This document shows, one piece after another, positions 7,012 through 55,412 of a stretch of 64,000 nt of DNA. The notes below the pieces were generated by a model that searched no databases, had not been told where the DNA came from, and saw only the letters and a list, made by a program, of their open reading frames with translations. This stretch comes from Terriglobia bacterium (GTDB lineage: Bacteria; Acidobacteriota; Terriglobia; Terriglobales; Acidobacteriaceae): positions 1-64,000 of the forward strand of contig JAJPJE010000085.1 in NCBI GenBank assembly GCA_021324365.1, read 5' to 3'. Positions within the stretch are counted from its first letter, which is position 1; each line of letters begins with the position of its first letter. A program made the translations under genes and the position numbers.

Positions 7012-8508
7012 ATGAAGTTCCTCGACCTACTGGATGGTGCGGAGGTCCTCTCCGAGACCGGCGATCCCGACATTAAAGGGCTCGAATACGACTCGCGGCG
7101 GGTACAGCCGGGCTTTGCCTTCGTGGCAATGAAGGGTGAGTCGACGGATGGGAATCGGTACATCGATGCGGCCATCGGCAAGGGCGCCGTTGCCGTTGTA
7201 ACCGATTCGGCAGGTGAGAGGCCGCGCCCCAAGGCAGCCTGGGCTCAGGTCGCGCATGGCCGTCGAGCGCTCGCTCGGCTTAGCGCAAATTTCTACGGCC
7301 GTCCGGCTGAGAAACTTGCCAATTCCGGTGTCACTGGGACAAATGGCAAGACCACCACAACGTTTCTGCTCGAAGCCATCCTGCAGGCGGCGGGACGCAA
7401 AGTCGCACTTATCGGAACGATCGAGTATCACGTGGCCGGAGAAGTGATTCCGGCGCCGCATACCACCCCAGAGCCGCTTGATTTGAACCGACTGTTTTCC
7501 GAAGCACTGCAAGCGGGCGCGACCGAGTCGGTGATGGAAGATTCGTCACACGCGCTGGTGCAACAGCGTGTGTACGGGATTCCGTACGATGTTGCAATCT
7601 TCACAAATCTGACCCGCGACCATCTCGATTACCACGGAACTTTCGACGAGTACTTCGCCGCAAAGCGCATGTTGTTCGAGGGCGTGGGTACCGATCCGCC
7701 CCGTGCGGCGATCCTGAATGTTGATGACGAATATGGGCGTGAACTCGTCAACTTCTGCAGGAAGCGCTCGCAGGTCATGACCTATGGTTTCGCGCAAGGC
7801 GATTTCCACGCCGAGAATGCCGAGATAGGCCCCAGTGGTACTCGCTTCGATATGGTTACGCTCGAACGTAAGGTTCCATTGTGGTCACCGCTGATCGGCA
7901 AGGTGAATGTGTATAACATTATTGCGGCGTCGGCAGCGGCGTATGCACGGGGCGTAAGTTTCGATGACGTCGCTCGCGGGGTCGAAGCTCTGCAGCGTGT
8001 TCCGGGACGTTTCGAGCGCGTCGACGCGGGCCAGCCCTTCACGGTAGTGGTCGATTACGCGCACACCGATGATGCGCTGAAGAACCTTACGGCGGTAGCA
8101 AGAGAGTTTGTGAAGCGCGGCGGTTCAGCGGGTAAAGTGATCACGGTCTTTGGCTGCGGCGGCGATCGCGATAAGACCAAGCGGCCATTGATGGGAGAGG
8201 CTGCAGGGCGCGGTAGCGATTTCGTGGTGCTGACGTCGGACAATCCGCGAAGTGAAGATCCAATGGCGATCATTGCTGATGCGAAACCTGGTATCGAGAG
8301 AACTGGTACGCAGTTCGTGGTGGAACCGGACCGGCGTCAAGCTATCGATCTGGCGCTGCATAGGGCTGGTCCGGGAGATATTGTGCTGATTGTGGGCAAG
8401 GGCCACGAGAAGACGCAGACGACCCGCGAAGGCGTGTTTCCGTTCGATGACGTAGAGGTTGCAAAGGCGCTGTTGGAAAAGCAGTCAGCAGGAAGCAATC
8501 AGCAGTAA
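7012..8508 (+). CDS. murE: UDP-N-acetylmuramoyl-tripeptide synthetase MurE (meso-diaminopimelate type)
   Basis: MurE adds the third residue to the peptidoglycan stem peptide at the expense of ATP, in the cytoplasm. The P-loop GVTGTNGKTTTT is at 106-117, the central-domain HTTPEPLDL and SSHAL motifs follow, and the substrate-selecting motif DNPRSEDP is at 410-417. DNPR identifies meso-diaminopimelate-adding enzymes, so the wall is of the Gram-negative A1gamma type. One residue in the usually hydrophobic VMEVSSHAL block is Asp (VMEDSSHAL). The last residues, KQSAGSNQQ, are encoded by a CAGCAG/CAATCAG-type intergenic repeat, so the C-terminus appears to have been extended by repeat sequence. Confidence 0.96.
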   Translation: MKFLDLLDGAEVLSETGDPDIKGLEYDSRRVQPGFAFVAMKGESTDGNRYIDAAIGKGAVAVVTDSAGERPRPKAAWAQVAHGRRALARLSANFYGRPAEKLANSGVTGTNGKTTTTFLLEAILQAAGRKVALIGTIEYHVAGEVIPAPHTTPEPLDLNRLFSEALQAGATESVMEDSSHALVQQRVYGIPYDVAIFTNLTRDHLDYHGTFDEYFAAKRMLFEGVGTDPPRAAILNVDDEYGRELVNFCRKRSQVMTYGFAQGDFHAENAEIGPSGTRFDMVTLERKVPLWSPLIGKVNVYNIIAASAAAYARGVSFDDVARGVEALQRVPGRFERVDAGQPFTVVVDYAHTDDALKNLTAVAREFVKRGGSAGKVITVFGCGGDRDKTKRPLMGEAAGRGSDFVVLTSDNPRSEDPMAIIADAKPGIERTGTQFVVEPDRRQAIDLALHRAGPGDIVLIVGKGHEKTQTTREGVFPFDDVEVAKALLEKQSAGSNQQ

Positions 8509-48968: not shown

Positions 48969-50096
48969 ATGAAGTCCCTCCCGTTTTTCGATCGAATCTG
49001 TGCGCTTGCGCTGGCAGTTGTTGCACTTTCTTCATTTGCGCGGGCCGGATCGCTCACCGCCAATCTAAATACGACGACGAAGATTGCATCTACCATTCCA
49101 GCCAATGGGGATGTGAATCCGTATGGAGTTGCGGTAGTGCCACGTTCTACCGGGGCACTGGTGCGTGGTCATGTCCTTGTCAGCAATTTCAACAACACAT
49201 CGAATCTGCAGGGGACTGGAACCACCATCGTCGATGTCGCACCGAACGGGACGGTCAACGTGTTTGCTCAAATTACAGCAGCGGGATTGCCTGGAGCTTG
49301 CCCTGGGGGTGTCGGCCTCACGACAGCACTGGTAGTTCTTCGCAGCGGTTGGGTTATTGTGGGAAGCTTGCCGACTACAGACGGCACATCGGCCACCGCA
49401 CAGGCCGGCTGTCTCCTGGTGCTGAACAAGTGGGGCAAAGTGGTAGAGACCTTCTCCGGTTGGCGGGATGGGGCGCAGATCAATGGGCCATGGGACATGA
49501 CTGCAATAGATTTCGGAGATTTCGCAGAACTGTTTGTGACGAATGTGCTCAATGGAACAGTGGCTGCAAACGGAAGCGTAGTCAACCGGGGCAGCGTCGT
49601 CAGAATTGTTCTTTCTGCGCCTGATGGAGACAGAGATGACCGTGCTTCGGTGCCACGCGAATTGCTGCGTACTGTCGTCGGCTGGGGTTTTGGAGAGAAA
49701 TCTGATCCGGCGGCGCTGGTGATCGGCCCAACGGGTGTCGGGCTTTCGGCGAACGGTACCTTATACGTGGCCGATACGGTCGCGAATCGAATTGCTGCCA
49801 TTCCTGACGCGGTCTTCCGCTTCAATAGCGACGGCACTGGTAAAACGGTTACGACAAAAGGCTCTTTAAATGGACCGCTCGGCCTTGCCATTGCGCCCGA
49901 CGGCAATATCCTGACTGTGAATGCAGGAGACGGCAATCTGGTGGAAACGACACCGGGAGGGAAGCAGGTCGTAACGAAGCCAGTCGACACTAGCGGACAA
50001 GGAGCCGGCACTTTGTTCGGGCTGACGATTGCACCGGGTGGCAGAGGAGTCTACTTCGTAGACGACGGTGACAATACTCTGGACCTTCTTCACTGA
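48969..50096 (+). CDS. Secreted beta-propeller (NHL/SMP-30-like) protein
   Basis: The 375-residue protein starts after AAAGGAGATG, has a Sec signal peptide (about 1-26), and consists of repeating propeller blades with motifs such as NPYGVAVVP, LVSNFNN, TLYVADTVANRI, GLAIAPDGNILTVNAGDGNLVETTPGG and GLTIAPGGRGVYFVDDGDN. NHL-type propellers bind ligands or proteins. No catalytic residues can be assigned. A rho-independent terminator follows directly. Confidence 0.85.
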   Translation: MKSLPFFDRICALALAVVALSSFARAGSLTANLNTTTKIASTIPANGDVNPYGVAVVPRSTGALVRGHVLVSNFNNTSNLQGTGTTIVDVAPNGTVNVFAQITAAGLPGACPGGVGLTTALVVLRSGWVIVGSLPTTDGTSATAQAGCLLVLNKWGKVVETFSGWRDGAQINGPWDMTAIDFGDFAELFVTNVLNGTVAANGSVVNRGSVVRIVLSAPDGDRDDRASVPRELLRTVVGWGFGEKSDPAALVIGPTGVGLSANGTLYVADTVANRIAAIPDAVFRFNSDGTGKTVTTKGSLNGPLGLAIAPDGNILTVNAGDGNLVETTPGGKQVVTKPVDTSGQGAGTLFGLTIAPGGRGVYFVDDGDNTLDLLH

Positions 50097-50118
50097 TGTT
50101 TAAACAGGCCGGAGGTGG

Positions 50119-50152
50119 AAAAGCCCAGCGAGGAGGCTGGGCTTTTCTTTTT
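50119..50152 (+). terminator. Rho-independent terminator
   Basis: AAAAGCCCAG (50119-50128) pairs with CTGGGCTTTT (50137-50146), followed by CTTTTT. It lies 22 bp after the stop of the propeller protein. Confidence 0.92.
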
Positions 50153-50199
50153 GCATTTTGACCTTCGACAGAAACCGCGTGCTGACTTCAGTCAGAGCG

Positions 50200-50227
50200 T
50201 AATGTCTCCCGGATGTCAGCAGGATGT
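50200..50227 (+). promoter_or_regulatory. Three 11-bp-phased direct repeats (OmpR/PhoB-type operator)
   Basis: TAATGT at 50200, GGATGT at 50211 and GGATGT at 50222 are spaced by exactly 11 bp, the period of tandem sites bound by OmpR/PhoB-family regulators. They lie 101 bp before the porin gene that heads the operon encoding such a regulator, so autoregulation is a reasonable inference. Confidence 0.55.
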
Positions 50228-50253
50228 AAAAGTGTTACCTCAGGAACAACTCC

Positions 50254-50266
50254 CTGTCCCGGACAG
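50254..50266. promoter_or_regulatory. Small palindrome CTGTCC-C-GGACAG
   Basis: A perfect 6-bp inverted repeat around one base lies between the phased repeats and the porin start. It could be a second regulator site or a leader hairpin. Confidence 0.35.
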
Positions 50267-50327
50267 TGTATTTTGAGTTTTTGACGGCAAGCTTGGTTAC
50301 TATGTCACCCCAGGCGGAGGTGAAGGT

Positions 50328-51851
50328 ATGCGTCGGGGTCTGAAGAGAACCTTGAGGTTGCTCCTGCTGGCGAATTTGCTTTCCGTTGCTTCTGTCGGAC
50401 AAGACATGGCCAAGCCGGACATGAACTCGGAGATTTTGCAGCAGCTTCGTCAACTCAGCGTTTCACTGGAAAAGACGCAGGCGCAGCTAGCTGAATCGCA
50501 GCAGGAAATTCGACAATTACGCGCCAAGATCGATGCCATGGAGGCGCTTCAGCAAGGTATCCCAGGAGCTACTGGGAGAAACGAAGCTTCCGCGACCGGT
50601 GTGCTGCCACAGGCCGCAGTGCCGGCTACCAATATTTCGCAAGACGACTGGGAAGTCATGAATGCCAGAGTCAACGAACTTCATCAGACAAAAGTCGAAA
50701 GCGCGTCGAAGTTCCGGGTGAAACTCTCCGGACTGCTGCTGATGAATGCATTCACGGCAAGCGGCCGCACCGATCAGGTCGATCTCCCTCAAATCGCTAC
50801 TGCGGCAGGCGACGGGGTGCCGGATGGATATCCTGGCGCATCGTTCCGGCAGTCCATCATCGGGCTAACGGGATACGGTCCCGACCTGCTTGGGGCGCAC
50901 ACATCCGGCGACATCCAAATGGACTTCTTCGGCGGGCTTTCAAATACCTACTACGGGATGACCGGGGGGATTGCACGGTTGCGGACTGGGCAGATACGGC
51001 TCGACTGGCAAAACACCTCAGTATCGGCCGGTTTACAGACGCCGGTATTTTCGCCGCTTTCGCCGACCTCTTATCTGACCGTCGCGGAGCCTGCGCTTTC
51101 CGCGGCTGGAAATATGTGGACCTGGACACCGCAGATCCGTGCCGAACATCGTTTCGATTTAGATCCTGTTCAGCTCAAAGTTGAAGCAGGTGTTATGGAT
51201 CCTATCAGCGTAGGAGCGGTAACGAGCACCTATCAAAGGTTACCAACACCCGGCGAGAGTTCGAGGCAGCCAGCCTACGAAATTCGCATGTCCGGTGGCA
51301 ACAAGAGTGAAGACCGGCCTTTCGTAATTGGCGTAGGCGGATTCTATAGTCCACAAGAATTCCGTTACGGATACCGAGTGCATAGCTGGGCTTCCACTCT
51401 CGACTGGAGAGTGGGGCTGCTGAAGAATATTCAGCTCTCAGGAGAGTTCTTCACTGGGAAGGGAATGGAAGGGTTTGGCGGAGTCTCCCTCGGTGCGGTG
51501 CAGCCAACCAGCTATTACAATTACACCTACACCGTTTTGCCGCAATTGGACGAACTGACCGGGATTGGCGGGTGGGGACAAGTCAAGTACGCGGTAAATT
51601 CGCGAAGCGAGTTTAATTTCGCCGGCGGATACGGCGGTCTGAACAGCGGGGGACTGCGCAATCTCGCACTAACAGGAGCGGATTACGCGAGTATACCAGC
51701 GCGGAATCAGGCATTTTTCGCAAATTACATTCTGCGCCCTCGGTCCGACCTGCTGCTTTCGGTGGAATACCGGCACCTGCGGACCTTCGGCGTGAACAAC
51801 GGGCCAGACACGGCGGATATTGTTGGATTGGCTGCTGGATTTCAGTTCTGA
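50328..51851 (+). CDS. Outer-membrane porin-like protein with coiled-coil N-terminus
   Basis: The 507-residue protein has a signal peptide (about 1-24) and an alpha-helical coiled-coil segment (about 33-72, ILQQLRQLSVSLEKTQAQLAESQQEIRQLRAKI). A long beta-barrel domain with alternating aromatic/hydrophobic strands ends in a terminal phenylalanine (GLAAGFQF), the outer-membrane assembly signal. GGAGGTGAAGGT precedes the ATG. The layout is that of a DcaP/OprP-like porin with a trimerising helix. It heads an operon with a cupredoxin and a two-component pair. Confidence 0.85.
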   Translation: MRRGLKRTLRLLLLANLLSVASVGQDMAKPDMNSEILQQLRQLSVSLEKTQAQLAESQQEIRQLRAKIDAMEALQQGIPGATGRNEASATGVLPQAAVPATNISQDDWEVMNARVNELHQTKVESASKFRVKLSGLLLMNAFTASGRTDQVDLPQIATAAGDGVPDGYPGASFRQSIIGLTGYGPDLLGAHTSGDIQMDFFGGLSNTYYGMTGGIARLRTGQIRLDWQNTSVSAGLQTPVFSPLSPTSYLTVAEPALSAAGNMWTWTPQIRAEHRFDLDPVQLKVEAGVMDPISVGAVTSTYQRLPTPGESSRQPAYEIRMSGGNKSEDRPFVIGVGGFYSPQEFRYGYRVHSWASTLDWRVGLLKNIQLSGEFFTGKGMEGFGGVSLGAVQPTSYYNYTYTVLPQLDELTGIGGWGQVKYAVNSRSEFNFAGGYGGLNSGGLRNLALTGADYASIPARNQAFFANYILRPRSDLLLSVEYRHLRTFGVNNGPDTADIVGLAAGFQF

Positions 51852-52588
51852 TGAATAAGCATCGGCACACTTCGCGGTTCGCTTTTCTCGTGGCTGGGTG
51901 GATATTCCTGTCGGCTTGTTTTTGCGTAGCTCAGGACTTGGGTGCAGTGACCGCCGAGATCAATGTTGTCCGGAGCGAGCAAAAGCAAGGAAAGGCATTG
52001 CCAGATAATTCTGAAGTGGTCGTATGGCTTTCTCCGCTCGATAGTTCAGTTGCTCAAAGTCGCACAAAGCCCAGCCGGCATTACCAAATGCTGCAGCGGA
52101 ATAAACACTTTAAGCCGGCGTTGCTGGTAATACCTGTGGGAACAGTTGTCGAGTTTCCAAACAAAGATCCCTGGTTTCATAATGTTTTCTCCCTCTACCA
52201 GGGCAAGAAGTTCGATCTTGGACTGTACCAGGCGGGAAGCACGCACTCGGTGCACTTCGACAGACTTGGGGCGTCCTACATCTTTTGCAACATCCACCCG
52301 CAGATGAGTGCCGTCGTTCTAGCAATCGACTCAGAGTACTACGCGATCTCTGATCCATCTGGAAAGGTAACACTCGAGGACATTCCTCCGGGACAATATC
52401 ACCTTCGCGTCTGGTACCAGGGCGCCTCGCAGAAGGCGCTGGATGCATTGCAGCGGGACATCACAGTTACTTCCGGCAGAAGAGATTTGGGCGTGTTGAA
52501 AGTGACAGCCAATCCTGCCGCCCAGGTGGCGCATAAGAACAAGTATGGACAGGATTACGATCCGGATGGCGCAACGCCTTCGTACTGA
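51851..52588 (+). CDS. Cupredoxin-domain protein (type I copper)
   Basis: The 245-residue protein has a signal peptide (about 1-28) and a plastocyanin/azurin-like domain (about 60-160). The likely copper ligands are His110 in PWFHNVF, then Cys146, His149 and Met152 in FCNIHPQM, all in the correct order. A C-terminal beta domain (about 165-220, carboxypeptidase-regulatory-like, SGKVTLEDIPPGQYHLRVWYQG) follows. It is a periplasmic electron carrier or copper-binding protein. Its ATG overlaps the porin stop by one base (TGATG), so the two are co-translated. Confidence 0.9.
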   Translation: MNKHRHTSRFAFLVAGWIFLSACFCVAQDLGAVTAEINVVRSEQKQGKALPDNSEVVVWLSPLDSSVAQSRTKPSRHYQMLQRNKHFKPALLVIPVGTVVEFPNKDPWFHNVFSLYQGKKFDLGLYQAGSTHSVHFDRLGASYIFCNIHPQMSAVVLAIDSEYYAISDPSGKVTLEDIPPGQYHLRVWYQGASQKALDALQRDITVTSGRRDLGVLKVTANPAAQVAHKNKYGQDYDPDGATPSY

Positions 52589-52689
52589 ATGTCTGGGAAA
52601 TGTCACCGAGCGGTTAAAAGATTCCTCGCAGTTCCTGAGGTTGGAAAATTTTGGTATACACAGGCCAGAGGGATGTTCGGTTGCAACAA

Positions 52690-53427
52690 ATGGATACGGT
52701 ATTAATCGTCGAAGACAGCGCCGCCATGCAGAAAGCCTTGCAACGGTTGTTTGAGGCAGATTCGCTTGCGGTGCAGTTGGCGTCAGATGGCCCTGCCGGC
52801 TTGGAGTCGTTCCGCAAACAGACGCCGACAGCTGTAGTGCTGGATCTGAAATTGCCGGGACTATCCGGTAAAGAACTTTGCCGCGAGTTCAAGGCGCTTG
52901 CGCCTACCGTGCCAATTGTTGTCTTGAGCGCTAACAGCGAAATCGAAGATAAGGTTCTACTGTTGGAACTGGGTGCAGACGACTACGTAACAAAGCCGTT
53001 CAGCCCGAAAGAATTGCTGGCGCGAGTGCGGCGGACCATGCGCCGGGGAGTAGTCGCAGCGGTGGCGGCCGTCGAAACTGGACGTAACGGAAAAGGGCAT
53101 GAGACTTTGTCGTTTGGGGATGTTCAAGTGGACTTCACGAGCATGGAAGCTACTCGCCACGGCGAACAAATCCAGATGACAGCGCAGGAGTTCAAAGTTC
53201 TGAAGTTCCTGTCTCGGTTTCCCGGGCACGTAATCTCACGAGACGACCTGTTGAATGAAGTGTGGGGTTATCACAACTATCCCTCCACTCGTACTGTTGA
53301 TAATCACATTCTCCGGTTACGGCAGAAACTCGAGCCTGACCCAGGCAGTCCACGATATTTTTTAACGGTGCACGGTGCCGGCTACAAGTTTGTTCCTGAC
53401 GGAGCCACGCCGCGACCCAGCGCATAG
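52690..53427 (+). CDS. OmpR/PhoB-family response regulator
   Basis: From the ATG at 52690 (MDTVLIVEDSAAM) the 245-residue protein has a receiver domain with the phosphoacceptor Asp52 in VLDLKLPG, a Ser/Thr switch in VLSANS and Lys in VTKPFSPKE. A winged-helix DNA-binding domain (about 145-240) follows, with LTAQEF-like MTAQEFKVLKFL and TRTVDNHILRLRQKLE. A TTG at 52681 is an alternative start closer to an AGAGGGA ribosome binding site. It lies 101 bp after the cupredoxin gene and 17 bp before its kinase. Confidence 0.93.
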   Translation: MDTVLIVEDSAAMQKALQRLFEADSLAVQLASDGPAGLESFRKQTPTAVVLDLKLPGLSGKELCREFKALAPTVPIVVLSANSEIEDKVLLLELGADDYVTKPFSPKELLARVRRTMRRGVVAAVAAVETGRNGKGHETLSFGDVQVDFTSMEATRHGEQIQMTAQEFKVLKFLSRFPGHVISRDDLLNEVWGYHNYPSTRTVDNHILRLRQKLEPDPGSPRYFLTVHGAGYKFVPDGATPRPSA

Positions 53428-53444
53428 TTGCGCCCGGCGGCTTG

Positions 53445-55205
53445 ATGATACGGCTTCGTCTGCGAACACAACTGTTAGGAGCCACGCTCCTGGTTACCTC
53501 GGTTCTGATCGGAGCAATCCTGCTAATCCTGCGGTATACGGTTCGCTCCGAGATCAGCCAGCAACTCACGGAAGGAATCAGCGCTTCGGTTCGTGCCTTC
53601 GAAGCCACGCAGAAGCAGCGCGATCTGCAACTCTCGCGCAACACGGCAATGCTGGCCGAATTGCCGACTCTGAAGGCACTCATGACAACGGAGCATGCGC
53701 TGACCATCCAGGATGGTTCCACATCGTTTTGGAAACTGGCGGGAAGCGATCTGTTTGCGCTCGCTGGATCCGATTCGCACATCAAGGCGGTTCATCTTAC
53801 AAAAGGTGCATGGACAATCGCAGATGTAGAACGGCACTTCCAGGCATCTCTCAGCCATGGAGATGAACTGAGCTGGTGGTACGACGATGGCCACCTCTAC
53901 CGGGTGTGTTTGCGCCCTATCGTTGCCGGCCAGGGAGATCAGGAACTCGGCATGCTTGCATTGGGATATGAAGTCAGTAACGCGGTAGCCGCCGAGATCG
54001 GCAATCTATCCCGAAGCGAGATAGCGCTCGCAACCGGAGGCACCGTGATTGCCAGTACACTCCCTGATCAGCAAGAGCGCGCCTTCAAAAGCCAGCTTCG
54101 ACGTGATCCGAATGGTGACGCAGGGGCCAGTTGGAAGCTGCCGCTAGACTCAGGGGTTTACCAGGTCGCTTCCGTTCCCTTAGAAGCTAATCTCCCGCTG
54201 CCCGTTCGCTGTTACGTGCTAATGCCCTTGCGGGCAAGCGAGGCATTTCTTCAGCACCTCAATCGCATTCTGCTGGCTCTGGGACTGGGAGCAGTGCTGC
54301 TGAGCGGATTGATGCTGCTATACATTTCGCAAAATGTTACTCGTCCCCTCGAGAATCTCGTGAAAGCAGTGCGTGCCTTAGCCGGTGGTGATTATGCGTA
54401 CTCAGTGTCATCGAAAGGCTCATTGGAAGTGGACCAACTCAGTGAAGCGTTCGCGATAATGCGCCAGCAGTTGCTGCAGTCGCAGCAACACCGCATCCAG
54501 GCTGAGCGAATGGCGGCGTTAAGCCGCACTGCGAGTTCTATTTCACATGACCTGCGCCACTACCTGGCCGCGCTACTGGCGAATGCGGAATTTCTGTATG
54601 AGGCAGAATCATTACATCTGGATAAGGAGGATGTGTACCGCGAAATCAAAATCGCTTCCGATCAGATGACTGAACTGATTGATTCCTTCCGTGAACTTGC
54701 GAATGATAGGGCTGCAATCATGCCAGTCCCGGCAAATCTGGAAGAGACGATCAGGCGGGCGATCGAGGCGGTGAAATCGCGCCATCCATTTCGCGACCGC
54801 ACCATTCAGATTGTCGCTCACGGAGCCATGAGCGGTGAATTCGACGCGCGCAAACTGGAACGCGTCTTCTTCAACCTGGTGCTGAACGCGTGTGAAGCGA
54901 CAACAACTTTTGGGAAGGTAGCGGTAGAGATTGGCTCCGATGAGAAGCAATTCCAAGTACGGGTTTCTGACAATGGCCCGGGCATCCCAGTTGCCATCCG
55001 AGAGACGCTTTTCGAGCCGTTTGTAAGTGCGGAGAAGGCGAACGGTACAGGACTGGGACTCGCGATCGTCAGCAAGATCATCCACGATCACGATGGCGAA
55101 GTAAGGGTCGAAAAGACATCAGATTCCGGCACCGTGATCCTGATCACACTGCCCAGGGTACGTCCGAGAAGTTCGGTGGAAGGTGTTGCGCCTGCGCTGG
55201 CGTGA
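53445..55205 (+). CDS. Membrane sensor histidine kinase
   Basis: The 586-residue protein has two membrane segments (about 11-31 and 273-296) flanking a periplasmic sensor domain of about 240 residues. A HAMP linker (about 297-350) follows, then an H-box with His368 in SISHDLRHYLAALL and an HATPase domain with NLVLNACEA, DNGPGIP and GTGLGLAIV. It should phosphorylate the adjacent regulator. The periplasmic domain is of the double-CACHE-like size, so a small-molecule ligand is plausible. ATG at 53445 follows GGCGG; an in-frame TTG precedes it. Confidence 0.93.
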   Translation: MIRLRLRTQLLGATLLVTSVLIGAILLILRYTVRSEISQQLTEGISASVRAFEATQKQRDLQLSRNTAMLAELPTLKALMTTEHALTIQDGSTSFWKLAGSDLFALAGSDSHIKAVHLTKGAWTIADVERHFQASLSHGDELSWWYDDGHLYRVCLRPIVAGQGDQELGMLALGYEVSNAVAAEIGNLSRSEIALATGGTVIASTLPDQQERAFKSQLRRDPNGDAGASWKLPLDSGVYQVASVPLEANLPLPVRCYVLMPLRASEAFLQHLNRILLALGLGAVLLSGLMLLYISQNVTRPLENLVKAVRALAGGDYAYSVSSKGSLEVDQLSEAFAIMRQQLLQSQQHRIQAERMAALSRTASSISHDLRHYLAALLANAEFLYEAESLHLDKEDVYREIKIASDQMTELIDSFRELANDRAAIMPVPANLEETIRRAIEAVKSRHPFRDRTIQIVAHGAMSGEFDARKLERVFFNLVLNACEATTTFGKVAVEIGSDEKQFQVRVSDNGPGIPVAIRETLFEPFVSAEKANGTGLGLAIVSKIIHDHDGEVRVEKTSDSGTVILITLPRVRPRSSVEGVAPALA

Positions 55206-55412
55206 TCGCGTGAAATCCCGGGGACTTGCGATCCGGCGCAAAGGACGAGTGACCGTTTCGTTGAATCCCCGGTTCTCCCGCTTTGTCAGGCATCTTCTCA
55301 CTAAGAAAATCGGGGGTTGTCACGACGGTGTAATGTTTTCGGTCAGCAGCCGCGGGCCCGTGCCTAATCTAGTAGGTGTTGTTGCGTAGCCAACATGTTT
55401 TATTTCTTGCGG

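Follow-up and report, generated by a model that had tools for sequence, protein, structure and literature searches.

What controls an operon in which genes for a porin and a cupredoxin are followed by genes for an OmpR/PhoB-type regulator and a histidine kinase? The four genes stand in this order in the window, by which we mean the whole stretch of 64,000 nucleotides that was analysed. A sequence-only reading had picked out three short repeats at their head, written as TAATGT-N5-GGATGT-N5-GGATGT, and had proposed that they were phased at 11 bp and lay 101 bp ahead of the operon. The 28 bases concerned are TAATGT CTCCC GGATGT CAGCA GGATGT and have an exact 11-bp period, and 101 bp is the distance from the last base of the array to the porin start codon (50328). 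The array sits past a terminator-like hairpin in the 231 bp that separate the porin gene from an NHL-repeat gene (Table 1), and the pattern ATGTN5GGATGTN5GGATGT has a single match in the whole genome of 4,444,665 bases, the backwards control pattern having none. Judged by sequence and gene context, the phased units are very probably a tandem operator for the operon's own OmpR/PhoB-type regulator. The operon's sensor-regulator pair most likely acts at these repeats, because related soil bacteria keep both the spacing and the core at the head of the operon.

Table 1. Genes and predicted sites of the operon in the window (feature, position, strand, basis or remark).
Intrinsic-terminator-like hairpin	50117..50148	+	divides the operon from the NHL-repeat gene upstream
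Predicted operator, three units, 11-bp period	array 50200..50227; TGTCTC 50203, TGTCAG 50214, TGTAAA 50225	+	sequence, matrix, Infernal, orthologues
Candidate -10, TATTTT	50269..50274	+	44 bp past the last TGT; weak
Outer-membrane porin	50328..51851	+	predicted model: N-terminal coiled coil, 16-strand barrel; nearest solved fold DcaP
Exported cupredoxin	51851..52588	+	invariant His/Cys/His/Met copper-ligand set
Second predicted operator, TGTC units 11 bp apart	52590..52606 (units 52590, 52601)	+	cupredoxin-regulator gap, window rank 2
OmpR/PhoB-type response regulator, predicted binder	52690..53427 (ATG at 52690)	+	Response_reg, Trans_reg_C
Sensor histidine kinase	53442..55205	+	HAMP, HisKA, HATPase

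Searches of Pfam and NCBIfam and a sequence search of the PDB gave no match for the window porin. Its predicted model (mean pLDDT 73.6, from 39 sequences) has its best fold match in DcaP, PDB 6eus (E 1.2e-15, TMt 0.75). The N-terminal coiled coil and the barrel are features that the model shares with DcaP-type porins, while the window protein stands apart from them in its 16% identity and in having no Pfam porin family. Membership of the DcaP sequence family was considered and dropped, as the likeness is in fold only. The second gene product is a type-1 copper cupredoxin by its fold and its ligands; the predicted model (mean pLDDT 81.8) matches cupredoxins, and His110, Cys146, His149 and Met152 are invariant across 30 sequences. 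The third gene had been read as an OmpR/PhoB-family regulator, and both domains expected of such a protein were found in its product. Residues 198–214, which we take to be the recognition helix, are nearly fixed across 54 sequences (the mean frequency of the commonest residue is 0.94), and this fits a conserved DNA motif. The regulator was rejected as a PhoB itself, since it scores 184.7 bits where the cut-off of the PhoB model is 296.2 and another regulator is found near pstB.

Porin homologues are present in 64 of 150 related genomes, and 56 of the places that carry them were fetched as large stretches to form the first set of loci. The porin and cupredoxin genes adjoin the regulator and kinase genes in most of the 56, usually in the order regulator-kinase-porin-cupredoxin, with some divergent arrangements; L032 and L033 match the window in their order. 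Among 80 named loci, 48 have the order regulator-kinase-porin-cupredoxin, eight have the window's order and five are divergent; the other 19 are partial or have no regulator/kinase pair in the stretch. The records of the named loci are nearly all from Acidobacteriota, Terriglobia or members thereof. Two of them, L164 and L165, hold a near-identical locus, one under a title of Verrucomicrobia and one under a title of Acidobacteria, and an error in one of the titles or bins is probable.

The sequence-only reading had proposed a scan upstream of orthologous porin genes for the same phased repeats, and this was run on the seven closest named operons, which have 44–49% porin identity and are all in the window's order. 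Phased TGTM units lie upstream of the porin gene in all seven. There are two units in L162, three each in L164, L165 and L166, and four each, some of them degenerate, in L163, L167 and L168. The seven represent about four to five independent cases, since L164 is close to L165, L163 is like L168, and L168 is apparently the G136 (L033) contig. Where the window has TGTC-N7-TGTCAGCAGGATGTAAAAGT, L164, L165 and L166 have TGTC-N7-TGTCACCAGCATGTAAAAGT. The phased-repeat reading was therefore upheld by the 11-bp units of the orthologues, whereas the exact GGATGT/ATGT consensus did not survive the comparison, the conserved unit being TTGT(A/C)A(A). Because the shared ATGT is partly local and it is TGT(C/A)A that forms the conserved core, the window's units are better written in the form given in Table 1.

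The scan also brought out other sites in these loci. In L164 to L167, another place in the locus outscores the porin-upstream array. Further phased TGTM arrays, with scores of 14 to 19, lie near the adjoining upstream gene, about 550 bp ahead of the porin match in L164–L166 and about 1 kb ahead of it in L163, L167 and L168; this adjoining gene may be part of the regulon as well. No counterpart of the window's site at 52590 was seen ahead of the regulator gene in any of the seven operons; L032 has a weak one with a score of 6.0.

The window contains an inverted repeat, TGCTGAC...GTCAGCA, which spans 50180–50221 and overlaps the first two units. Its 17-nt arms (50180–50196 with 50205–50221) are 76% complementary and perfectly so for 7 bp at the ends, as might be expected if the operator were this inverted repeat, bound by a symmetric repressor. 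That reading is very improbable, given that the inverted repeat was not seen by eye upstream of the seven closest orthologues, where the direct 11-bp units are present.

The tandem operator reading gains further from the DNA ahead of the regulator gene in relatives. Motif discovery was carried out on the 300 bases upstream of this gene in the 42 of 56 loci with a regulator match of at least 200 bits. Enumeration of 4-mer dyads placed TTGT-11-TTGT at the top, in 19 of the 42 upstream regions, against a maximum of 5 over 10 shuffles. TGT[AC]A pairs are spaced by 11 bp in 27 loci and by 22 bp in five, every other spacing occurring at most once. A replication set of 51 regulator-upstream regions, obtained from the 67 of 80 named loci with DNA outside the first set, gave the same picture: the 11-bp TGT[AC]A pair occurs in 33 regions and the 22-bp pair in nine, with at most two elsewhere. 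The consensus is TTGT(A/C)AAAnATTGTCAA, and 11 bp further upstream lies a third, weaker unit.

When the loci were scored in a leave-one-out fashion, an upstream score of at least 12 bits was reached by 32 of the 42 loci with the regulator and by none of the 13 loci without it (L055 could not be scored). Eight of the 42 regulator-bearing loci have no upstream site of at least 10 bits. In 33 of the 56 loci, the best match anywhere in the locus falls ahead of the regulator gene or the porin gene. Together with the units upstream of all seven porin genes, this co-occurrence supports the earlier suggestion of a concrete predicted operator.

It also bears on the idea that the array is bound by some other OmpR/PhoB-family regulator, for example the phosphate regulator PhoB with its similar TGTCA core. 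The genome has eleven full-length matches to OmpR-type regulators, counting that of the operon, and the most conserved motif of the E. coli PHO box is CTGTCAT (PMC4415409). We consider such binding very unlikely, because in the leave-one-out counts the motif goes together with the regulator of the operon itself. Moreover, the likely PhoB (best match, C80) is encoded no more than 7 kb from the sole pstB above the cut-off, and the 18-kb stretch there has no site that scores above 8.1.

In order to score the window independently, a matrix of 33 nt was built from the sites of 27 relatives, with the 15 of 42 loci that have no strict pair and the window itself excluded. On this held-out matrix, position 50201 scores 15.35 and ranks first among 127,936 positions, 7.6 bits ahead of the next. 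Second is 52588, between the cupredoxin and regulator genes, which scores 7.76, followed by a position at 6.90. Among 20,000 shuffles of the gap upstream of the porin gene, 12 reached 15.35, as did 5 of 7,676,160 positions in block-shuffled windows; the score of 7.76 was reached by 216 of 20,000 shuffles of the cupredoxin-regulator gap. Reduced to its two-unit part, the matrix puts the porin-upstream site second in the window. Infernal, run on the window with its filters off, placed 50202–50230 first (6.3 bits, E 0.95 per 64 kb) and 52589–52605 third. The array might owe its appearance to chance, as a set of three like tetramers within 231 bp that was selected after 64 kb had been read. The pattern was indeed chosen by a reader, and the Infernal E value is modest, but the rank and lead on the held-out matrix, the shuffles of the gap and the orthologous arrays at the same place leave chance a very slim prospect.

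A search of the whole genome with the same Infernal model listed just two places, C56:94358 and C72:28653 (E about 0.05), the window site not being among them. The matrix gives these two places 17.9 and 26.7, respectively, both above the window site, so that either a wider regulon or chance has to be allowed for. The first (C56:94358–94382; L099 1499–1531) shares the window's contig and lies upstream of an ORF on the opposite strand. The second (C72:28653–28679; L100 1499–1531), on the minus strand, is about 90 bp upstream of a same-strand ORF and is a possible further target. Both places were inspected, and neither is linked here to this two-component system.

A possible role for the array in transcription can be outlined from its position. 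In relatives, a TAAGCT box stands 43–45 bp after a TGTMA unit in 12 of 42 loci; the window promoter is without this box and has TATTTT at the same distance. A sigma-70 promoter scan of 50000–50500 returned none at threshold. The promoter may lie at about this distance from the array, and the phosphorylated regulator, encoded two genes downstream, would bind the three units as a head-to-tail dimer or trimer, with one subunit per 11-bp turn. Once bound, it would set the transcription of the porin-cupredoxin-regulator-kinase operon, probably through activation, with autoregulation. Through the weaker array at 52590, the regulator and kinase genes would receive an input of their own.

In relatives, the operator motif also pointed to a candidate family of small RNAs. 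In L036, L045, L060 and others, reversed phased units are found just after the cupredoxin gene, followed by a -10-like box, and a candidate small RNA lies 60–200 bp past that gene. The arrangement TGACA-N20-TAnnnT occurs after the cupredoxin gene in 15 of 55 loci of the first set, while 17 other spacings occur at most twice each. It is clade-limited, being found in two of 62 among the further named loci. Behind it, in 12 aligned loci, is an element of 60–70 nt with two hairpins. In this alignment, 7 of 12 pairs have changed on both sides, in 13 cells, and none of 500 shuffles reached as high; with 21 sequences fitted to the model, 14 cells have changed on both sides. Folding of single sequences, for the eight of 12 that were folded, gave z values of -0.4 to -2.2, which are not significant alone, so the case for a small RNA rests on the compensatory changes.

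A model of the element only was searched against 398 family genomes and gave 21 matches at E 1.3e-6 or better, all of them beside a cupredoxin gene. Nine of the 21 are outside the set from which the model was built, and all nine carry TGACA-N20-TAnnnT. Weaker matches (E >1e-5) in other genomes were taken as chance; in each of the nine that were inspected, there is no cupredoxin gene in the stretch. The element is not simply a leader, since the next long ORF is on the opposite strand in several loci. An Rfam search of the element from ten loci gave no match. In L045, Rfam group II intron domains (8189–8475) lie directly behind the element, at the contig end. A model search of the window's own genome found no such element at this sensitivity, and there is no model match after the window's kinase gene. 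Few of the further named loci carry the element (two of 62). A phased pair at 55318–55333 was considered as a small RNA site and dropped, as no fitting -10 or hairpin could be seen by eye.

To our minds, the chances are evenly balanced that a single class of 11-bp phased operator is used by this two-component system in two orientations in part of the Acidobacteriota. In the forward orientation it would precede the -10 of the system's own porin-cupredoxin operon by about 44 bp; reversed, its last TGACA would lie exactly 20 bp before the -10 of a structured small RNA closely downstream of the cupredoxin gene. The species of the window would have kept the operator and not the RNA.

The titles and abstract openings in the literature covered, in which subscription journals are sparsely represented, contained no description of the operator motif or of the small RNA family. 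The motif is conserved and is a candidate binding site for a two-component system from a soil phylum that is large and little studied, and it is tied to a defined operon with a porin and a copper protein, which makes the signal and the regulon directly testable.

Regulators of the OmpR/PhoB family bind direct repeats as tandem dimers, and PhoP of M. tuberculosis binds direct repeats of 7 bp that must be separated by exactly 4 bp, with tighter binding to triple and quadruple motifs (PMC4832192). With its head-to-tail period of about 11 bp, its conservation among orthologues and a regulator that combines a receiver with a winged-helix Trans_reg_C domain, the array would, by its predicted features, class as a tandem operator. 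It shares with the M. tuberculosis PhoP and PHO-box operators head-to-tail units of 6–7 bp that are 11 bp apart from start to start, a number of two to four units, and placement beside the regulator gene. It differs from them in its consensus across relatives, TTGT(A/C)AAA-N4-TTGTCAA, in not being tied to phosphate genes and in having a porin-cupredoxin operon as its predicted target.

The EnvZ/OmpR system of E. coli is linked to porin genes, and OmpR controls the small RNAs MicF and OmrA/OmrB. Common to that system and to the one described here is an OmpR-type two-component system with a porin and, in some relatives, a neighbouring candidate small RNA. Here, in contrast, the genes form one operon with a cupredoxin, and the candidate small RNA is outside the Rfam families at the ten loci searched. 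If the two-orientation scheme is true, the relatives would possess an undescribed RNA family and a circuit of porin, copper protein and small RNA that is like OmpR with MicF and OmrA in its logic.
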